Shown here: positions 3,001 to 63,285 of the stretch, one piece after another
Numbering within the stretch: the first letter of the stretch is position 1
How the letters are laid out: every line of letters begins with the position of its first letter
From: Moniliella sp. 'wahieum'
Taxonomy: Eukaryota > Basidiomycota > Moniliellomycetes > Moniliellales > Moniliellaceae
Assembly: GCA_003971905.1 (NCBI GenBank)
Contig: RSEE01000054.1
Location: forward strand, 1 to 64,000
Length of the DNA: 64,000 nt
Direction: 5' to 3'
Notes under the pieces: model-generated
Seen by the model: the letters and a program-made list of their open reading frames with translations, nothing else
Database searches by the model: none
What the model was told of the DNA's origin: nothing
Translations under genes and position numbers: made by a program

Positions 3001-4854
3001 TGAGCTACACGGGTTTGATCAAGTCTTTTGGGCGGCCAGTTCGGGGCAAATCAATCGATGGCGCAAAAACATGCTCGGCCTCAAACCCACCGACCTGGCC
3101 GAGTTGGACCAAGCCAGCGTACCCTTCATTTACAACTTTTCCTGCCGTCGTACCCGTGCCCACCGACTGGACGATAACATTTGTGTTTCCGGGTACTGGT
3201 CCTCCCCACCCCCAAGACCGAATGGGATCCGCCCAAGGAGTTGGTTGCCTTTTTGAAAGAGGGGCGCAAACAAGGCAAAAAGTTGGCCTACTGTGGCTTT
3301 GGCTCGATTGTCGTCGACGACCCCGAGGCGATGACGCGCAACTTGTATGCGGCTGTGGAGAAGGCTGGGGTGTATGCAGTGGTGGCAAAGGGATGGTCGT
3401 CCCGTATGAAGAAGCAAGAACAAGCAGAAGGAACAGAGGAAGAACTGATTCCGGTCCCGAGACTGTTGTTATGTCGTTGATTCCATCCGCACGACTGGCT
3501 TTTCCCTCAGATTGACATTGCGCTGCACCATGGCGGAGCCGGTACGACGGGTGCTTCGTTGCGTGCCTCGCTGTCACCGCCATCAAACCCTTTTTGGCGA
3601 CCAATTCTTCTGGGCCCAGCGCGTACAGAAGTGGGGCGCTGGTGTGCGGGTGGCGTCGCTGTCGACCAACGATTTGGCTTCGGCATTGAAGAAGGCAGCT
3701 GAGGATCGGATCATGCGGGAGAAAGCGCAACAAGTCGGTGCAAGCATCTCTACCGAAGATGGACCAGCCAGGCGGTCGGTTTTTTGTACGACAAACCTGA
3801 TGCGGGCTCGTCGCCATCCTCGGTTCCGTGAGGACCTGTGTGTGCTAAAGGAAGACCAGCTGTTTTCTACCCAACGCGGGAGGAAGGAAAAGGGAGTGAA
3901 GGAAGAGAAGAAGAAGAAGAGAAGGAGAAGGAAGAAAAGAAGAAGAGAAAGAAAGAAGAAGAAAAGAAGAAGAAGAAGAAAGAAGAAGAAAGAAGAGAAG
4001 AAGAAGAAGAAGAAGAGAAGAAAGAAGAAGAAGAAGAGAAGAGAGAAAGAAGAAGAGAAAAGAAGGAAGAAAGAAGAACGAAGAAGAAAGAAGAAGAAGA
4101 AGAAGAAGAAGAAGAAGAAAAGAAGAAGAAGAAGAAGAAGAAGAAGAAGAAGAGAAGAAGAGAAGAAGAAGAAGAAGAAGAAGAAGAGAGAAGAAGAAGA
4201 AGAAGAAGAAGAAAGAAGAAGAGAAAGAAGAAGAAGAAGAAAGAAGCGAAGGAGAAGGTGACGGAGAAGCATGCAAAAGGCGCAAGCACAGCGGACATTC
4301 GTACCTCCCATACCCGCGACTCATCCCTCCACTCTTCCCACAGTGCACCTCCCGCTTCGCCCACAGAGGAGGCCCTACCGATACGAACGGGGCGGGGACC
4401 AGTCGCCTTCTACACCCTCTACGCCCAAACGACTGCTTCACAAGATTGGGAGCAAGTTGAATTTGGCGAGCGACGAGGCGAGCGCAGCTATCTCGACGGG
4501 ATCGTTGCCACTCAAGAAACGACGAGCTTGCTACCGCGTTTGCCTAGCCTGCCAGCCTGCCCAATACCCACTCTGGACGGTATGCCCAAACTCTCGCTGG
4601 TTTCGGCCATGCGGCAAATGGTCGATTCGGACGAGTGTGAGCAAAGCGAAGTCAACCGGGCCGAGCAGAAACATGCGTCTCTCTCGGTCGCACTGGCGGA
4701 CCAGCTGCATGCGCGTCAATTGCTGCCCAAGCAAATTGAATTGCGCCTGGCCCAGCGCTTGGCCCAGCACACCCACGACATGTACCTCGACCAAGGTTCT
4801 CCCTCTGCCACTGACTGGGATGGCCTTCCCGCTTCAGCGGGGCAACCACACTAA
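20..4854 (+). CDS. ATG26: Sterol 3-beta-glucosyltransferase (UGT51/Atg26 family)
   Basis: Transfers glucose from UDP-glucose to membrane sterols; family members act at membranes through GRAM and PH domains. Seen here in order: a GRAM-like segment (about 1090-1190, [17 protein letters not shown]), a PH-like segment (about 1430-1640), a second GRAM-like segment (about 2215-2400, [14 protein letters not shown]), a GT28 N-lobe (about 2530-2690, [20 protein letters not shown]) and a C-terminal UGT domain (about 2860-3760) with [14 protein letters not shown] and [20 protein letters not shown]. These are diagnostic of Atg26. The reading frame changes many times, probably from assembly indels, so the coordinates are an envelope. 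Its span of about 1600 codons suits fungal Atg26. The 5' end lies at the window edge; ATG at 20 is a guess and the true start may be outside. A Lys/Glu-only tract (3898-4258) precedes the last 190 or so codons. Family call very sure, exon structure not. Confidence 0.87.
3898..4258. repeat. Polypurine (GAA/AAG)n tract inside the ATG26 3' coding region
   Basis: Of 361 bases only two are pyrimidines, both C (4079 and 4247); the rest is imperfect GAA, GAAA and GGA repeat. Translated, it gives only Lys, Glu and Arg in the sense frames. Long purine/pyrimidine mirror-like tracts can adopt triplex DNA. Length is probably unreliable in this assembly. Confidence 0.95.
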
Positions 4855-5943
4855 TTCACTCCAGTTGGGCTCCCTCGCCGCTAGTGAAACCAACCTATAT
4901 CTCGTTCTGCTCTGCTCTGCTCTGCTCCGCTCTGATCTGCCCAAGACAGTGGGAGCTTGTGATTAATGTGACCCAATGCCATCCCTATCTATTTCCCCAT
5001 AGCTCGCCCTGTGGTACTTAGTACAGGACCGACTTCGCCATAAAAGACCTTTAGCAAAGCTCGATCGATGTGCCGACCTACCGGGGACCCACTTCAGGAG
5101 ACCTCCATGCCTCTTTGCAAGCCCGGTTCCCGATTCCGATTCCTGATTCCTGACTCCTGACTCCTGACTTCTCTCAGCGCGTACGCTGCCCACCCGCCTC
5201 AACCACCCGCGGACTTACTAGTCAACAGTCATCCGCCCCAGCTGCCTCGGCCGCCAAAGTCTACCGGGGACTGTTTTTGCCACTCGCTTGGCTCTCCATC
5301 GTGCCAAACCAAGGCCCAGAGCGGGCAGCGCGGACGGCCACGCACAGCACGCAGCACGCAGCATAGGGCACGCATCGTGCTGCCCCCTAGGCGCTGGGGG
5401 GCGGGTTCAGGGACTACCATGGCTCCCGCTGCGTGCAGCCATGGGAACTTGTCTGGCAAGCAACGGACAACGGACGCTCTTCCCTCTCCTCGAGGGCTGG
5501 GCGCGCCGCGTAGGCCCCAAGAGCGAGCGGGTGCAGTGTCCCTACCTGTACCTTAGCTGCGTTGCTGAACGTTGAGCTTTCGGGTGGCGTTGCGTGTGAG
5601 CGCGTACCAATCCATGCCCAGCACGTGGGCGCGGCGGAGCTGGCAGGCAGAAGGGCGCGCGAGCGCTAGCGTGCTCTGCTCGCCTCCTCCGCCCGCACGG
5701 CAGGCCGAAGCCGAGCGGCGGGCTGGGTAGGGTGGGGGGCAAGCAGGCAACGAGGCGGTGCCAAGGGTGCACTATGGTGTGGGCGGTGGGTGGAATCAAG
5801 TAGCGTGCCACCCGCCGGACGCGCGGGGGCACGGCTATGTTGCCGCCTGGCTTCCGCGCCAACAAGGGTGCATTGCATTGCATGGCAAGATAGTAGTGTG
5901 CACAAGGGAGGCGTGAAGGGGGAAGAGGGGGGGAGGAGAGAGT
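4855..5943. other. Gene-free stretch between ATG26 and PAM18 3' ends
   Basis: Convergent intergenic region. It holds a TCTGC pentamer run (4906-4940) and a TGA-phased heptamer array (5144-5171). Short open frames here look like chance in GC-rich DNA. No RNA gene recognised. Confidence 0.6.
5144..5171. repeat. TGA-phased heptamer array, units TGATTCC/TGACTCC
   Basis: Four consecutive 7-base units each start with TGA: TGATTCC, TGACTCC, TGACTCC, TGACTTC. The four-base part is not palindromic here, unlike most arrays of this family elsewhere in the window. Confidence 0.9.
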
Positions 5944-10679: not shown

Positions 10680-10736
10680 GTGAAGCTTCAGCGACTTCAA
10701 CGTACCTTCAACAAGGTACCTTGACGGTGACATGCG
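10680..10736. repeat. Degenerate TCA/TGA-phased array
   Basis: Degenerate tandem of TGAAGCT, TCAGCGACT, TCAACGTACCT, TCAACAAGGTACCT, TGACGG and TGACATG. TCA or TGA precedes palindromic cores ACGT, GTAC, CATG. Confidence 0.7.
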
Positions 10737-10883
10737 CTGCCACAGCAGTGCCACCGCCCGTCCTCGCGTCCTCCCCACTTTCGTCTTTGCCTCTGCCCAT
10801 ATGCCTCAGTGCCTAAAGGTCTAAAGCTTAAAGGCTCTCGGCCGAACACAGTGATAGCGATTATTTCGATTATTGACGCTCGA

Positions 10884-10918
10884 TGATCGATGATCGATGA
10901 TCGATGATCGATGATATA
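10884..10918. repeat. Heptad array, unit TGA+TCGA
   Basis: Four perfect TGATCGA units plus TGATATA. Each junction forms the palindrome ATCGAT. Confidence 0.97.
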
Positions 10919-11033
10919 CGATACCCCCCAGTCCCTGCGTTTTCCCACCGCGCAATGACGCATACAAATGATGAGTCCCCCGTTCCAGGCTGTTCCATCT
11001 ATCATGCAATCATGCCTGGATGTATAGGGGGGT

Positions 11034-11054
11034 GTTGAACGTTGAACGTTGAAC
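11034..11054. repeat. Heptad array, unit TGA+ACGT
   Basis: Three copies of GTTGAAC (phase TGAACGT), embedding AACGTT. Confidence 0.95.
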
Positions 11055-11266
11055 TCAAAACGGGGAGCTGAACTTACCGGCCGAGCCCGGCAGGGCTGGG
11101 CAGAGCTGGCAGGACAAAGCCCGGGAGAGGTCGATGATGTTGACGACGATGGAAATGGCATGCGGGATGAGTGTGACGTCTGTGACTTGTGCCAGCGTGA
11201 CACACGAATCGTTAAACCCACCGCAGCAATGTGGCGCAGCGTGACGCGTGAATATTGAATGGTACA

Positions 11267-11290
11267 TGATGCATGATGCATGATGCATGA
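11267..11290. repeat. Heptad array, unit TGA+TGCA
   Basis: Three perfect TGATGCA units followed by TGA, embedding ATGCAT. Confidence 0.96.
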
Positions 11291-11454
11291 GATGGACGAT
11301 TAGTGATCATCGATCAATGAGTAATATTTAATGATAGTAATGAGATCTGAGACAGAGATGTCAAATCTCCGAACCGGGATTTGGGGATGCGGGAAGCTGG
11401 AAGTGGGAGTGGAAAGGGCAAAACATGTCAAAGTAGTGTCAAGCATGACGCATG

Positions 11455-11531
11455 TCAAGCTCTTCAAGCTTCAAGCTAGCTTCAAGCTTCAAGCCTGTCA
11501 AAGCTTCGTCATGCGTCACGCGCGTCACGTG
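11455..11531. repeat. Composite heptad array, TCA+AGCT then TCA+CGCG
   Basis: Four TCAAGCT units and TCAAGCC, broken by CT and AGCT, then TCATGCG, TCACGCG and TCACGTG. The tetramer changes along the array while TCA stays. Confidence 0.93.
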
Positions 11532-11897
11532 CCATATGTCACACGCCACCCACCATGCAGCAGGCATCAAGCGCCAGTCATCGATCATCGTTGGTACGGT
11601 TAGTCGCCGTTTCCTAATGGTAAGCTCGATTAGAAAATCGATAGAAAAATCTACTACCCTAGTCTAAGATCTAAGCATTAAACGAAACGTTAAACGTTAA
11701 CCACGTCACGGGTGGCCATCAGTAACTAGTAACTTGTAATCAGCGACGGCGACCAGGCAACCCTGTATATTTGGCCGCACGTGCCAACCTTCGCAACGTC
11801 AAACGTCTGCAACGTACAATTCAAACGTAAAGCAGCCTAAAGCTTATAGCTTGAAGGAATACATACGGTTCCGATCTCAGAACTGAGTTTCAGATCT

Positions 11898-11918
11898 TCA
11901 ACGTTCAACGTTCAACGA
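11898..11918. repeat. Heptad array, unit TCA+ACGT
   Basis: TCAACGT, TCAACGT, TCAACGA; reverse-complement equivalent of the TGAACGT array at 11034. Confidence 0.95.
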
Positions 11919-11925
11919 CGTACAT

Positions 11926-11990
11926 ACAACCGTACAACCGTACAACCGTATTACAACCGTACAACCGTACAACCGTACAACCGTACAACC
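11926..11990. repeat. Octamer tandem array, unit ACAACCGT
   Basis: Three perfect units, a 3-base interruption (ATT), then four more perfect units and a partial one. Period is 8, and the unit lacks TGA/TCA, but each junction creates GTAC. It lies between two heptad arrays. Confidence 0.96.
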
Positions 11991-12003
11991 GAACCAACCG
12001 CGG

Positions 12004-12047
12004 TAACCGGTAACCAGTAACTAGTAACCGATAACCGGGATAACCGG
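12004..12047. repeat. Heptad array, unit TAA+CCGG with drifting tetramer
   Basis: TAACCGG, TAACCAG, TAACTAG, TAACCGA, TAACCGG, then GA and TAACCGG. The trinucleotide is TAA and the tetramer moves through CCGG, CAG-type and CTAG forms. Confidence 0.94.
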
Positions 12048-12314
12048 CGCTCTCGCGTCTCGTCGCTCGCAGCCGGCGCCCGCCCACTGCGCCTACTGCG
12101 CCCCTCTCGCACCCCGCCACCGCTCACGGGTGAAGTCACCAGCCAGGGCGACCTCTCTGATTTGGCCGTGGATAAGGCCAAGGCCTAAGGAGTTGGGGCC
12201 ATTGCGGCGGCTGCATTCTTTGTCGGCTGTATCGGACCCGAACCGATACCAAAAGCTCCGGGCCAGAGTCCACTGCGTACATACTGAATGTGGGTACTGA
12301 ACGAGTGTCAGGGA

Positions 12315-12392
12315 TGATCGATGATCGATGGTCGATGAGTACTCAGACTGAGTGCTGAGTCGATGAGGCCGATGGGCTTGAAGCTTGAAGTC
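12315..12392. repeat. Composite heptad array with changing palindromes
   Basis: Units in order: TGATCGA, TGATCGA, TGGTCGA, TGAGTAC, TCAGAC, TGAGTGC, TGAGTCGA, TGAGGCCGA, a short break, TGAAGCT, TGAAGTC. Four different palindromic cores follow each other in one array. Confidence 0.92.
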
Positions 12393-12445
12393 TGCCGCAC
12401 TTTGTGAGCTTCAGGCCTCAGGATGCATGATAATGGATAGCATCG

Positions 12446-12513
12446 ATGAGAAGCTGAGTACTGAGTCTCAGCTCTCGGTATACTGAGGTCCTGAGGCCTT
12501 CAGCCTGAGGGCT
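12446..12513. repeat. Degenerate TGA-phased array
   Basis: Runs of TGAGAAGC, TGAGTAC, TGAGTC, TCAGCTC, then TGAGGTCC, TGAGGCCT, TCAGCC, TGAGGGC. Spacing varies between 6 and 9. Confidence 0.8.
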
Positions 12514-12566
12514 TCTCTATGCACCCCCCTTCGGTCTTTCAATTGGAGCGGCTAACATTTGCAAGG

Positions 12567-12613
12567 GGAAGCTTCAAGCTTTTAAATTAGCTTCACGCGT
12601 CACGCGTCACGTG
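12567..12613. repeat. Heptad array, TCA+AGCT and TCA+CGCG
   Basis: TCAAGCT, an AT-rich spacer, then TCACGCG, TCACGCG, TCACGTG. Followed by TGATCC. Confidence 0.9.
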
Positions 12614-12663
12614 TGATCCCATTAAGCTTTAAGGTCATTCTAGGAAGCTTGATTTGATCCTAG

Positions 12664-12718
12664 ATGATCGATGACTCGACGTGACGCGTGACGTACCTCG
12701 ATCGATAGCTTCAAGCTG
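12664..12718. repeat. Degenerate array with TGATCGA, TGACGCG, TGACGTAC, TCAAGCT
   Basis: Single or paired units of several arrays in a row, ending with TCAAGCT. Reads like a chimera of neighbouring arrays. Confidence 0.75.
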
Positions 12719-27294: not shown

Positions 27295-27322
27295 TCACTA
27301 GTCACTAGTCACTAGTCACTGC
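27295..27322. repeat. Heptad array, unit TCA+CTAG
   Basis: Three TCACTAG units and TCACTGC; embeds ACTAGT. Confidence 0.96.
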
Positions 27323-30891: not shown

Positions 30892-31380
30892 TGATGGATG
30901 CACGAGAATTATCAATGCCAGCAGAGACCGGTCACCTTTTGCTTCTGCTCCTGTGTTTTCTTTTTCGCTGGCACATCCACACACAACTTATCAAGGCAGC
31001 CTCCCTTTTGTTTCGATACTCTCATTGTGCTATAACTCTCTCTCCCTCTCACACGGTGATGTGTGTATTATGCCTCAAATCCCCACCTGATGACACTTTT
31101 TTTGCCATCCGTTTTTGTGATTATAAACTAGGCTCTACCCGCCTTATTCGCCTTTTATCCCCTTGTCAGGCACTGTTTTCTTCTTCAATCGTCTTGCGTG
31201 CTACCCTTTTCCAAAACAACACCCCCCGCTATGCTGTTACCCTCTCCGCGCCATCGCCTATATACTACTCTCCCAGCGTCATATTCCGAGACCTTTTTTT
31301 TTTTTTTTGAATCATTTTGGGCTTAACATGCACGTCAATAGAAGCAGGCATGGGCAATTATTCAAAAAACTGCCAAGGCA
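30892..31380. other. 3' flank of the multicopper oxidase
   Basis: AT-rich, no gene seen. It includes a run of about 16 T (31293-31308) before the LINE-derived segment. Confidence 0.5.
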
Positions 31381-32312
31381 GTGTATATATACTCGAGTAT
31401 AGAAGAGGGATATATGGTAGATAAGGAGAACCACCGGGCCTACGGCCCGGTCAGTCAGCTGGGGCTTCGCCCCAGCTGCCGTTCCCCCTTCGCCACCGTA
31501 GCCACCGTTCCCCTGGGCCACCGTTCCACGCTGGAGAGGGAACATAATATCACCGATACTTGCGGGTGGGCTGGAACGTGGTACCGGTCAGGGAACGTGG
31601 CACCGGTCGCTGATGTAAAAGCGTGCAGATCGGGGGTCGTGCAATATTTTGGTGCGTTGCATGACGCAGTGCGGGAGCCCATTCTCCAGCTCCTACGCTC
31701 CATCCCCGACACCCATGTCCGCAACGAACCTATGGTGGAGGACGAGGATGGGAGAAGACAAAGGACGCAGCGCACCGACTACCGCGTGATGGGGCCCGGA
31801 GCACTCGGAGGATCAGGAATGGAGGTAGACCACACGCTGCGCGACACGGGATCACTGGCGGCGCAGAGCGCGTTCCGGAGGGTGGTGCATGAGAGCACCG
31901 CAACCCCCTTGGAACGCCGGGAGAAGGAGCTGCTTCGGATGCTTGAACAAGCCGAATGCGGCAAGAACGCCAAGTACCAGGGACGCACTCAAGAGCCGTT
32001 TTTCCCCCTGGTTTTGACGACGCGAGGATACTACGGCACCAAGACGGCGGGCAAGTTGTTCGCGCATTGGAAGGAGTTGGCTACTAAGTCTCAGTGGAAA
32101 TGGTTCCTCGCTCGGATGTCAACCACGTTCCTCCGTGTCCACACGCGCTTCCTAGGGTACGGGACCGGATGGCGTGAGCCGGAGGGTCCTGATATCCTGG
32201 CGATCCCCTGGTCCCTTGACCCTGGTGGTGCCCCCAAGTAACCCCCGCAAGATGAACGGTTAGGTTTAGACGTAGCGTTCCCCCTGTCCCAGCCTTAAGC
32301 TCTGTCAATGAA
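31381..32312 (+). mobile_element. 5'-truncated LINE (non-LTR retrotransposon), 3' end of ORF2 and 3' UTR
   Basis: An open frame runs to TAA at 32239-32241. Its last 130 or so residues (EVDHTLRDTGSLAAQSAFRR, then QEPFFPLVLTTRGYYGTK and AGKLFAHWKELA) match the pattern at the C terminus of LINE ORF2 proteins: a conserved Phe-x-Pro stretch followed by Gly-Tyr/Phe-Gly and a helical end. No reverse transcriptase core is present, so the copy is 5'-truncated. The segment from about 32097 to 32312 recurs in inverse orientation at 61435-61650, and both copies stop at the same CTCTGTCAATGA-type 3' end. Left boundary unclear: the portion before about 31620 does not look RT-like. The family name is not known to me. 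Confidence 0.65.
31433..31478. other. Two adjacent perfect hairpins
   Basis: Stem 1: 31433-31440 pairs with 31444-31451 (8 bp, loop TAC). Stem 2: 31456-31465 pairs with 31469-31478 (10 bp, loop TTC). Both are GC-rich and only four bases apart, at the start of the LINE-derived segment. Downstream, CCACCGT occurs three times within about 40 bases. Confidence 0.9.
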
Positions 32313-32944
32313 ATGGACGTGACTTAGGGCTCAGCGAGGGAGATGAGATCGAGAGGAAAGACCCCTCCGTGAAAGCTCATCTCCATCAGTCTCTTTCGAT
32401 AATATTATGCAGTTGAAAGTGTGGATTGTGGGTGTGGGCTTCGCATCAAATTGTTCGTGAAGTCCATGCTATACTAACGATATACTAACGATAATCGATC
32501 ATCGATAGTCGATCGTCGAGGGATATTGGCGATGATCGATGATATCGATGACAGGATGACAGGTGTGTGACAGAAATGCAAGCGGCTGGGCAGTGTGTTC
32601 CGAGCCCAGCGGCGCCGCCTGCTGGCCCCGGGAGACAGTCGCCTATTGCGCCCCACACTCGACGGGCCTGTAGCATGTATTTACGCCCCGTTCAGCAGAG
32701 TGTGCACGGGCAGTGTGCGGGGCAAGCATTTGTGAATGCAATAATGCGAATGTATATCGGACAGGCTGTTGCATGCTATGGCCATTCATTTTCATTCTAC
32801 CATGGGGCTGCAGTGCCCCTCAGCCACACCCATGCGGGGCAATGCACGCCATCATACACTAATCTTTGGCCAGTAACTAGTCTGTAGGGCCTGCGTCAGA
32901 TCTCAGGATACAAGACACTTATGCAGTTCCTGTGGGCCAAATGA
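32313..32944. other. Intergenic region upstream of STT4
   Basis: No gene seen. Holds an array region (32471-32560) built of ATACTAACG repeats and TCGATCA/TCGATAG/TGATCGA units. Confidence 0.55.
32471..32560. repeat. Mixed array of TCGA heptads and ATACTAACG units
   Basis: Two copies of ATACTAACGAT, then TCGATCA, TCGATAG, TCGATCG, and further on TGATCGA, TGATATCGA, TGACAGGA, TGACAGG. Confidence 0.8.
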
Positions 32945-39669: not shown

Positions 39670-39690
39670 TCACATGTCACATGTCAATTA
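39670..39690. repeat. Heptad array, unit TCA+CATG
   Basis: TCACATG, TCACATG, TCAATTA; embeds ACATGT. Confidence 0.94.
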
Positions 39691-44181: not shown

Positions 44182-44230
44182 TGATCGATGACGTTGAACG
44201 TTGACGTTGAACGTTGACGTTGAACGTTGA
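44182..44230. repeat. Alternating TGACGT/TGAACGT array
   Basis: After TGATCGA the units strictly alternate six and seven bases: TGACGT, TGAACGT, three times, then TGACATGCAT. The 13-base pair is the real repeat unit. Confidence 0.96.
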
Positions 44231-44370
44231 CATGCATTGAAATTCAATCAGCCCCAGATCCCACAGGCGCCCCGGCTCCAGCATCCCATCGAGTCTGAGA
44301 TCTGCATTTCATCTGAAATCCAGCCAGTGTGAGATGCGGGTCGTGTAGATCGAAGCCAATCCTAAAGCAA

Positions 44371-44391
44371 TCAAGCTTCAAGCTTCAAGCG
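44371..44391. repeat. Heptad array, unit TCA+AGCT
   Basis: TCAAGCT, TCAAGCT, TCAAGCG, just outside the NMT1 stop codon region. Confidence 0.95.
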
Positions 44392-51767: not shown

Positions 51768-51790
51768 TTATCGATTATCGATTATCGCCG
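51768..51790. repeat. Heptad array, unit TTA+TCGA
   Basis: TTATCGA, TTATCGA, TTATCGC; TTA in place of TGA. Confidence 0.92.
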
Positions 51791-59552: not shown

Positions 59553-61434
59553 GCGGGTATTTGCATCCATATGTATCTCTCCATATCTACCCTCTTCCTG
59601 GGAGTGCAGCATCCCCTCGGTCGACGACAACGACGTTTCTCCCGTCCGTCATAGTTTTTTCTAATCGTCTTTTTGACCAAACGGCGTCACGCCCCTCGCG
59701 CACGAAAATGCCATACAGGGGCATATGGCTCAACGAGCCAAAGAGCCTGAGTTGAACTACCACAAACTCCTGCAATCTGGAGGGACGGTCATCGCGACGG
59801 TATCCTTTTGTCGGAAGTAGAACCAGGACAACAGTAACACGCGAAGCTAGCAGGACCTATTTCCTGTCATGAGCGCGTGATCACTGAGCTACATATATAA
59901 TCCTGGACAAACTGAGGAGAAACGACTGGACCAATGGGCAGGGGTTGCATAGTACTCTCGTTGTCGGGGCGAGGCGGTGGCGGCAGCGGGCCAAGCAATG
60001 GCCTACCACCAGAATGTGGCATCTGACGTGGCTCGTGAAGAGACCGATAACTGGTGTTGCTGCCGCCACCAATCGAGCTGTTTCTTCCATCTTTTCTCCT
60101 TTCATCAGCACCGCCCTCATGCTTCCACTCATTCCAGGTGCGCCCGGCATGGTCCTAGGACCTGGACTCAGTGCGCAGCCCATATGCCTCGATTGTGCTT
60201 CCTGGATCGATGTAACGACTCTTTTTATCAGATCACCTGCGACGGCCTGCCGCTGGACAAGACGGTTAACATTTCCGGGTATACAATGTCCGTTATAATG
60301 GGGGCTTCATCCCAGCGTTGGAGGCGCACACCGACAATGACATGCCCCTCGAATGGGCTGACATCTTCTTCCAGAGGCGACTTCGAAGAGCGCCTGGCGC
60401 GCGAGTACATCCCCAATAATAGACGTGTGGTCTTTATCTTGGATCGTCTTCTGGCCTCCCACAAGTTGCCTTCCACCAATTGTCATCGCTCAGCGTGACT
60501 GTGTTCCCATATGTCGTCGGCTCCAGCTTCTCAGCATGCGGCCCACGATGCATCAGCCATCGCGCAGCCCAGGATTGACCCACGTACACACTCAACAATC
60601 CCTCAGTCTGATACTCACTCTTCTGGCTTGCAGCTTGCCCGGCCGCCCTCACCTCGGTCCACCTCTGATGTACCAAGAGGTGGTCAAGCAAAATATGGTG
60701 GAAGTATGTAATGGTATATCTTCCTATGTATTCATTGAACTATAACTTTTCTTCCCAATTCTGCATATGGAAGTATTTTTGTCTCTGGCAAAAAGCTACT
60801 AAGCTTGACCGTTATCGCTATTATACCGAATTGCCCCCTGTGTCGGTGGCAGTGAGCCAGTTGCATGTTCAGAAAAGAGTCTTTGGTTGGCATGCATGAC
60901 CTTACATCGATCCACACCTCTCTGGGATGGAAACTGTGGCCTCAACTATCTGCCTCCTCCTAGGTCTGTTGATGGAACGGTTACGTGTCACTGTGGGCTG
61001 GCTCGCTTACACAAGCCATTTCCTCCGTTGCGCAGAGCATGCTTTCTTCGACCTGTGCGACCAAAATCGAGTCCCTTCCGTACGGTTGGGGAGGTCTGTG
61101 CGTGAGCTTGGAGTCCCTAGTACTGATCTTATTCTACTTCAAATATTTGTGGTCTTTGGTCTTGAGCGCAAGTGAGCTCTAAGGTGAGCTGCCGGATCTG
61201 GACGTCGACAGTCATCAGTCCTGATCCGCGGGCGTCTCGTCCTCGATGTGAGATTCTACCCTCTTCATGCCTTAATTTTGCCTTCTTATTGCTGGTGAGG
61301 GCGGAGACCTGCCCATTACTTTCCGCATTTTTTCTTGTTTTGCTGTTCCTGTTCTAAACTGAGTGTAGGAACCTTTTGCTCCTTTGAGAGTCATTCGTCT
61401 TTATTCCTTCCTCTTTCTATGTTGCATCCATATC
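59553..61434. other. Gene-poor region downstream of uS19m
   Basis: No protein family recognised. Between 60200 and 60480 both strands have open frames (for example IITDIVYPEMLTVLSSGRPS on the minus strand) that could be a decayed gene, but I cannot assign one. From 60700 the DNA is clearly AT-richer than the gene regions. Confidence 0.45.
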
Positions 61435-61650
61435 ATTGACAGAGCTTAAGGCTGGGATGGGGGAAACGCTACGTCTAAACCGAACCGTTCATCTTGCGGG
61501 GGTTACTTGGAAGCGCCACCAAGGTTAAGAAACCAGGGGGATCGCCAGGATATCAGGACCCTCTGGTTCTCGCCATCCTATCCCGTACCCTAGGAAGCGC
61601 GTGTGGACACGGATGAATGTGGTTGACATCCGAGCGAGGAACCATTTCTG
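61435..61650 (-). mobile_element. 3' tail of the same LINE family, 5'-truncated copy
   Basis: Reverse complement of this segment matches 32097-32312 across its whole length with only scattered differences (about nine in ten bases by eye), covering the ORF2 C terminus (MSTTFLRVHTRFLGYGTGWR in the other copy) and the 3' UTR. Truncation at about 215 bases from the 3' end is typical of target-primed reverse transcription. Orientation is opposite to the first copy. Confidence 0.85.
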
Positions 61651-63224: not shown

Positions 63225-63285
63225 TAACTAGTCACTAGTCACTAGTCACTAGCCAGTCACTTGTCACATGTCACTAGTCACTTAG
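63225..63285. repeat. Heptad array, TCA+CTAG with drift to CTTG and CATG
   Basis: TAACTAG, three TCACTAG, CCAG, TCACTTG, TCACATG, TCACTAG, TCACTTAG. The longest CTAG array in the window. Confidence 0.96.

Follow-up and report, generated by a model that had tools for sequence, protein, structure and literature searches.

The window analysed here, that is, the whole stretch of 64,000 nucleotides at positions 1–64000 of contig RSEE01000054.1 (C54), belongs to a 69.5-Mb assembly of 223 contigs, the single assembly on which the analysis rests. The source was judged to be a basidiomycete fungus from a KRE6 exon, whose best named relatives, for the most part Agaricomycetes, share about 55–65% identity with it, one unnamed protein reaching 81%; a PI4-kinase stretch gave no match. 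Along it are scattered tandem arrays with a period of seven bases, in which a constant TNA triplet, mostly TGA or TCA, alternates with a tetramer that is mostly palindromic and varies between loci. Such arrays, already set apart from copies of one microsatellite in a preliminary description, were found both within and beyond the region 10680–12718, with a total of 76 pairs of identical TNA triplets enclosing a palindromic tetramer at 45 loci (palindromic pairs merged when within 30 bp). This region holds 33 of the 76 pairs, in a dense cluster at 10822–12691. On the forward strand, the cluster includes a (TGA TCGA)n array (10884–10914) with TCGA corresponding to its left flank GA, a (TGA ACGT)n array (11036–11052) whose flanks GT and AC would each give ACGT, the mixed array CG-TGA-CGCG-TGA-ATAT-TGA-AT (11242–11258), in which the left tetramer follows the left flank and the right one the right flank, a (TGA TGCA)n array (11267–11290), a TAA chain carrying CCGG, CCAG, and CTAG (12004–12027), one member of which is non-palindromic, and a TGA-TCGA unit (12313–12330). 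On the reverse strand, it includes TCA-AGCT units (11464–11491), a (TCA ACGT)n array (11898–11914), and a (TCA CGCG)n array with the right flank CG (12593–12611). Further along the window, reverse-strand arrays were found of (TCA CTAG)n (27295–27318, and 63232–63280, the latter followed by a degenerate chain), (TCA CATG)n (39670–39686), (TCA AGCT)n (44371–44390), and (TTA TCGA)n (51768–51787). Finally, TGA-TCGA and TGA-ACGT units lie on the forward strand at 44182–44231, partly in an alternation of 7 and 6 bp (TGAACGT/TGACGT), as if every other unit had lost one base.

Repeats of other kinds were also seen, in the window and in a comparison sample of 25 stretches of 10 kb, taken at fixed positions on 25 contigs and selected without regard to content (labels such as L030 denote sampled stretches, and labels such as C11, contigs); two extra stretches were added to the 25 for some counts. 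An 8-bp array, TACAACCG, lies within the dense cluster (11925–12000) and does not follow the seven-base rule, and a period-7 TGA array with the non-palindromic tetramers TTCC and CTCC (5127–5169) breaks the grammar. A long and degenerate tract of GAA (purine), with about 118 copies, occupies 3902–4257. A dispersed repeat with a shared 3′ end and differing 5′ ends has copies at 31342–32330 and 61427–61648, as well as in L009, L027, L033, and L002, and has a LINE- or SINE-type look. In addition, a dispersed LTR-like element was present at L025:1–3579, where its terminal direct repeats (1–128 and 3452–3579) are identical over at least 128 bp, and at L009:8731–10000.

The 76 palindromic pairs of the window exceed by far the mean of 2.3 and the maximum of 8 obtained in 200 dinucleotide-preserving shuffles made in 500-bp blocks. 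The tetramer was palindromic in 64 of 96 TGA/TCA pairs, in 12 of 21 TAA/TTA pairs, and in 5.6% of 3770 pairs of all trinucleotides except TGA/TCA, a pool that still includes TAA/TTA. Similar values were found in the 25 sampled stretches, with 176 of 321 for TGA-N4-TGA, 28 of 58 for TAA-N4-TAA, and 6.0% of 12,926 for trinucleotides except TGA/TCA; all 16 palindromic tetramers were represented among the sampled TGA sites. With window and stretches taken together, palindromes made up 240 of 417 TSA pairs, 40 of 79 TWA pairs, and 8 of 144 pairs of the control AST. The preliminary description had mentioned TAA and TTA units as rare; they show the same palindrome bias. In the genome as a whole, starts of chains of four TGA triplets (overlapping starts counted) numbered 6448 versus 1198 for the reversed pattern, and the TCGA 24-mer was found 112 times versus once. 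The 25 stretches contained 204 sites in 250 kb, or about 0.8 per kb, of which chance would supply roughly 0.1, and this extrapolates to around 57,000 sites in the genome.

In the window, 15 exact runs of period 7 reached a length of 18 bp or more, 12 of which consisted of TNA plus a palindrome when the list of runs was read by eye; runs of at least 2.5 copies numbered 24 for period 4 and between 0 and 9 for periods 5, 6, and 8 to 15. The inserted length is 4 bp, with full palindromes at 7, 8, and 9 bp numbering 5, 2, and 7 versus 1.7, 0.5, and 0.9 expected, an excess also at 11 bp, equivalent to two units, and nil or small excesses at the remaining lengths. Paired triplets keep a single orientation, and TGA-N4-TCA was not enriched. 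As previously noticed for exons, none of the 76 pairs fell inside the nine ORFs (8,496 bp) taken as coding in the window, four of them by their own Pfam hit and the others by position.

The grammar noted earlier was correct, but it missed that the flanking dinucleotides determine the tetramer: in most palindromic sites, it consists of one flanking dinucleotide and its reverse complement. With xy for the two bases to the left of the TNA pair, pq for the two to the right, and ′ for complement, the rule reads xyTNApq to xyTNA-[y′x′xy or pqq′p′]-TNApq, a gain of exactly 7 bp that can be read directly from the assembled sequence. Among 143 isolated palindromic sites, 109 matched a flank (49 the left only, 37 the right only, and 23 both), and 34 fitted neither. 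A second count began with 329 isolated pairs, palindromic or not, and set aside the 153 in which part or all of the flank is shared. In the 176 pairs informative at both positions, 30 were wholly of the xy type and 24 wholly of the pq type, where 0.7 of each would be expected; the next full patterns were LRRR, with 4 cases, and plain duplication, with 3. The pure types also led in the half-informative classes (13, 10, 9, and 7), accompanied by 7 and 2 plain duplications, which means that some sites, a minority, are simple 7-bp duplications.

A fixed-length duplication with a symmetrical core points to a transposase, and joint bases that are the reverse complement of a flank point to former hairpin ends. 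We therefore consider it likely that the TNA-N4-TNA units are excision scars of a cut-and-paste DNA transposon that leaves through hairpin ends, and that the arrays arose by further rounds of the same process. The transposon would insert at a TNA-centred target, mostly TGA or TCA, duplicating the 7 bp xyTNApq, and after its excision each flanking end would retain the duplicated heptamer. These ends, as the inverted copies suggest, would be hairpins opened two nucleotides from the tip, such that the terminal dinucleotide becomes a 4-nt palindrome, pqq′p′ at the left end and y′x′xy at the right end. Joining that preserves one palindrome whole would leave the site exactly 7 bp longer, with its TNA doubled, and the doubled TNA would be a new target from which repeated rounds could build arrays. 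Events inside an array would repeat its tetramer, whereas an event at an outer TNA could take the other flank. An alternative source of the tetramer was rejected: footprints of Tc1 transposons contain 2+2 terminal bases of the transposon left behind, but the tetramer here matches the genomic flank and not a constant end. A search for 3-bp TNA duplications accompanied by terminal inverted repeats (TIRs) gave 7 with TGA and 4 with TCA among 150 candidates, several of them being arrays, with no clear excess.

The attribution to transposon excision relies on an element that matches the scars in target length and centre. A 7-bp target duplication of the form NNTNANN had been predicted before this element was recognised; the scan run concurrently with the prediction, which also tried duplications of 5, 6, 8, and 9 bp, had already returned it as one of 61 candidates with 7-bp duplications, where it went unnoticed until later scans. 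No TNA centre was imposed in any of these element scans. The element, at L030:4552–9519, is 4968 bp long, with a TIR of 23/24 matching positions that begins CTCACTGA and a duplication GATCATG. Using its first 100 bp as query, 19 ends were detected in the genome. Both ends could be read in six complete copies, five of which have exact 7-bp duplications (GATCATG, GATGATG, GTTGATG, CATCAAC, and again GTTGATG), each centred on TGA or TCA; the sixth, in C11, has different heptamers on its two sides, CCTGATG and TATCATC, each centred on TSA, and is perhaps a recombinant. Single ends in register were read in C149 (ATTGAAC) and at L030:3503 (GATGAAG), and one end in C8 lies two bases out of strict register; the ends at C16, C4, C66, and C38 are outside this reading. 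A genome-wide pattern of TNA, two bases, and the TIR start yielded 13 exact and 6 one-mismatch occurrences versus 2 for the reversed control. The end at L030:3503 immediately follows the scar GA-TGA-TCGA-TGA-AG, an arrangement expected if a scarred TGA were reused; the C8 copy has the same flank, so both are probably copies of one event.

In L031:4861–9763, a TIR of 13/14 with the duplication CCTCACC was set aside, as it spans apparently ordinary coding ORFs and its TIR similarity fades after 14 bp. The region between two TCGA arrays in the same orientation 4 kb apart in C58 showed no TIR element and a single ORF longer than 120 codons, and it is not considered an insertion. A set of 238 weaker candidates with a 7-bp duplication showed no excess of TNA centres (10 cases), and paralogous repeats used as stand-ins for alleles gave two gaps, of 7 and 14 bp, both of which departed from the predicted form.

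None of the eight ORFs of the L030 element had a Pfam hit. One of them, of 186 codons (L030:7530–8087), had matches only in five of the complete copies and in C66, the latter at 70% identity and near another TIR end; no relative was found in Pfam, the protein database, or the PDB. The element also carries 11-bp subterminal repeats (TTCCGTACCnC) close to the left terminus and, at L030:9123–9208, a stretch of 86 bp that has inverted ends of 12 bp and lies between two TGA triplets. A search of the genome for six transposase families gave no match, although for hAT (dimerisation domain PF05699), KDZ, and Plavaka the control genomes gave none either. RVT_1 gave 71 hits in the genome. The putative transposase may differ greatly from those known, may be missing from the assembly, or may be the product of the 186-codon ORF.

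Several observations stand against the excision model: the six transposase families gave no match (three of them with silent controls), 19 element ends face an extrapolated 57,000 sites, and the scars are invariant in length, unlike known hairpin footprints. The same applies to the irregular copies in C11 and C8, the plain 7-bp duplications, the isolated palindromic sites that fit neither flank, the chains with three palindromes, and the lack of a TNA excess among the 238 weaker candidates. Moreover, when target heptamers were rebuilt from the 98 isolated TGA scars that fit a flank, GTTGATG, the commonest target of the element, was found in none of them. This absence weighs only lightly, but together with the few ends it makes it doubtful that the L030 family was the source of most scars. 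The L030 family or its relatives would have made the scars under the excision model; other transposon families sharing the machinery and since lost, or an enzyme without an element, are possible sources too. A tentative reading, to which we give clearly less credence than to excision by a transposon, is that of a dedicated and precise cut-and-rejoin pathway, in which a hairpin-forming enzyme, perhaps of an undescribed transposase superfamily or a tamed one, would repeatedly cut intergenic TNA sites, its matched opening always adding the 2+2 palindrome, with the scars as a growing repeat class. Unlikely, as a rival to excision, is a non-mobile enzyme, such as a tamed transposase or nuclease, that makes cuts staggered by 7 nt at TNA-centred sites and whose hairpin or templated ends produce the tetramer with no insertion needed. 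Such an enzyme would agree with the silence of the six transposase searches (three of which lacked a match in the controls as well), with the scarcity of TIR copies beside so many scars, and with rebuilt targets devoid of the preferred heptamer of the TIR family; but it leaves aside the presence of a TIR family whose duplications have exactly the length and centre predicted, and one end of which adjoins a scarred TGA.

The depth of copying bears on a further alternative. Flank palindromes of 6, 8, 10, and 12 bp numbered 2 altogether, so that copying extends over two bases. If a repair polymerase such as Pol theta acted by snap-back synthesis, in which a 3′ end would fold at T-N-A, copy two bases, and return, an inverted copy of one flank would also result, and the T and A of TNA can indeed pair; but the absence of any spread in copy length counts against it, and other self-pairing trinucleotides (AGT/ACT, CAG) show little or nothing, which makes this reading very unlikely. 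Templated synthesis at break ends was nonetheless the nearest of the three origins initially proposed, in that the data point to the repair of broken ends, although of ends closed as hairpins.

If the doubled TNA left by excision is reusable, arrays should carry a left block derived from the left flank and a right block derived from the right one. We found 84 chains of at least two tetramers, 43 of them all-palindromic (32 uniform and 11 mixed); the block-order comparison omits the 41 chains with any non-palindromic tetramer. In the mixed all-palindromic chains, the first tetramer fitted the left flank in 10 of 11 cases and the last one the right flank also in 10 of 11, with both ends fitting in nine; the two partial failures, L017:5453 and L033:737, each miss at one side. 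Among uniform chains, 28 of 32 fitted at least one flank. Chains with three different palindromes, such as that at C1:61651, also occur, and they are not explained by the flanks alone, as two flanks cannot give three palindromes. Copying of a single microsatellite unit is not what these 11 of the 43 all-palindromic chains present, with different tetramers in flank order. Ordinary microsatellite slippage, or the hairpin-driven expansion of near-palindromic heptamers that had been suggested at first, could appeal to the 32 uniform chains out of 43, but palindromes are already present at isolated sites, adjacent tetramers can differ while each obeys its own flank, and single near-palindromic heptamers show hardly any excess, with 291 of 4123 for TGA (7.1%) and 316 of 4018 for TCA (7.9%), where even base use would give 6.25% and AGT reaches 8.2%, above both. 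Given the flank rule, we regard this as a highly improbable first cause; slippage may still lengthen uniform arrays, in which it would look the same as the repeated insertion and excision proposed for the long ones. Selection for sites bound by a protein that reads TGA half-sites at 7-bp spacing, likewise suggested earlier, would fit the constant TGA, the fixed spacing, and the lack of sites in the nine ORFs taken as coding; but the tetramer can be any of 16 palindromes and copies the flank, neither of which such a protein would require, and the flank rule leaves this reading with practically no credit.

Scar formation as proposed here resembles processes known from other systems. In V(D)J recombination, performed by RAG and Artemis, coding joints arise from perfect hairpins at the flanks, whose opening some 2 nt from the tip gives 2-nt P-nucleotides; RAG and Transib duplicate 5 bp. 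The likeness lies in the position of hairpin opening, and the difference, in this 5-bp duplication. Among transposons, the closest parallel is offered by hAT elements such as Ac/Ds and TcBuster, whose footprints are described as the result of flank hairpins and end joining with retention of the duplication (passages in PMC5873905 and PMC3499496), including, for Ac/Ds, palindromic P-nucleotides of variable length (PMC5873905). The scars share with them the kept target duplication and the flank-derived palindromes. They differ in that hAT footprints, as those passages present them, vary in length and carry deletions, whereas the scars always have 2+2 bases and a gain of 7 bp; in addition, the hAT palindrome has as its centre the complement of the base adjacent to the element (PMC5873905), whereas here the centre falls between two bases. 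Duplications of hAT elements are given as usually 8 bp, but 7-bp target duplications are recorded in basidiomycetes for hAT7 of Puccinia and Kyakuja of Agaricomycotina (passages in PMC12730594). The 7-bp duplication of five of the six complete copies of the L030 element, and the constant gain of 7 bp in the scars, resemble hAT7. The transposases of hAT7 and Kyakuja are of the hAT or KDZ type, neither of which had a match here, with controls silent too, and Kyakuja has CA..TG ends without TIRs, unlike the 23/24 TIR of the L030 element. Finally, Galileo, of the P superfamily, is reported to make a 7-bp duplication at a palindromic target with the consensus GTANTAC (passages in PMC4168063), similar in length but different from the NNTSANN of the L030 element. 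Excision footprints, P-nucleotides, and 7-bp duplications of basidiomycete transposons are already on record (PMC5873905 and PMC12730594).

A description of this seven-base grammar was not found in the literature consulted, consisting of titles, abstract openings, and some passages. To our knowledge, no report exists of an invariant palindromic scar of +7 bp, of its density, or of its growth into flank-ordered arrays.

The flank rule turns the repeat grammar into a readable record of mutation, in which each scar names the original target heptamer and the end that supplied the palindrome. If the proposed origin is true, the arrays would make it possible to count break repairs across evolutionary time, would explain where one class of short tandem repeats comes from, and would serve as a natural assay for the opening of hairpin ends outside the immune system. 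It would also mean that a genome in which few DNA transposons are found can carry very many traces of their activity.
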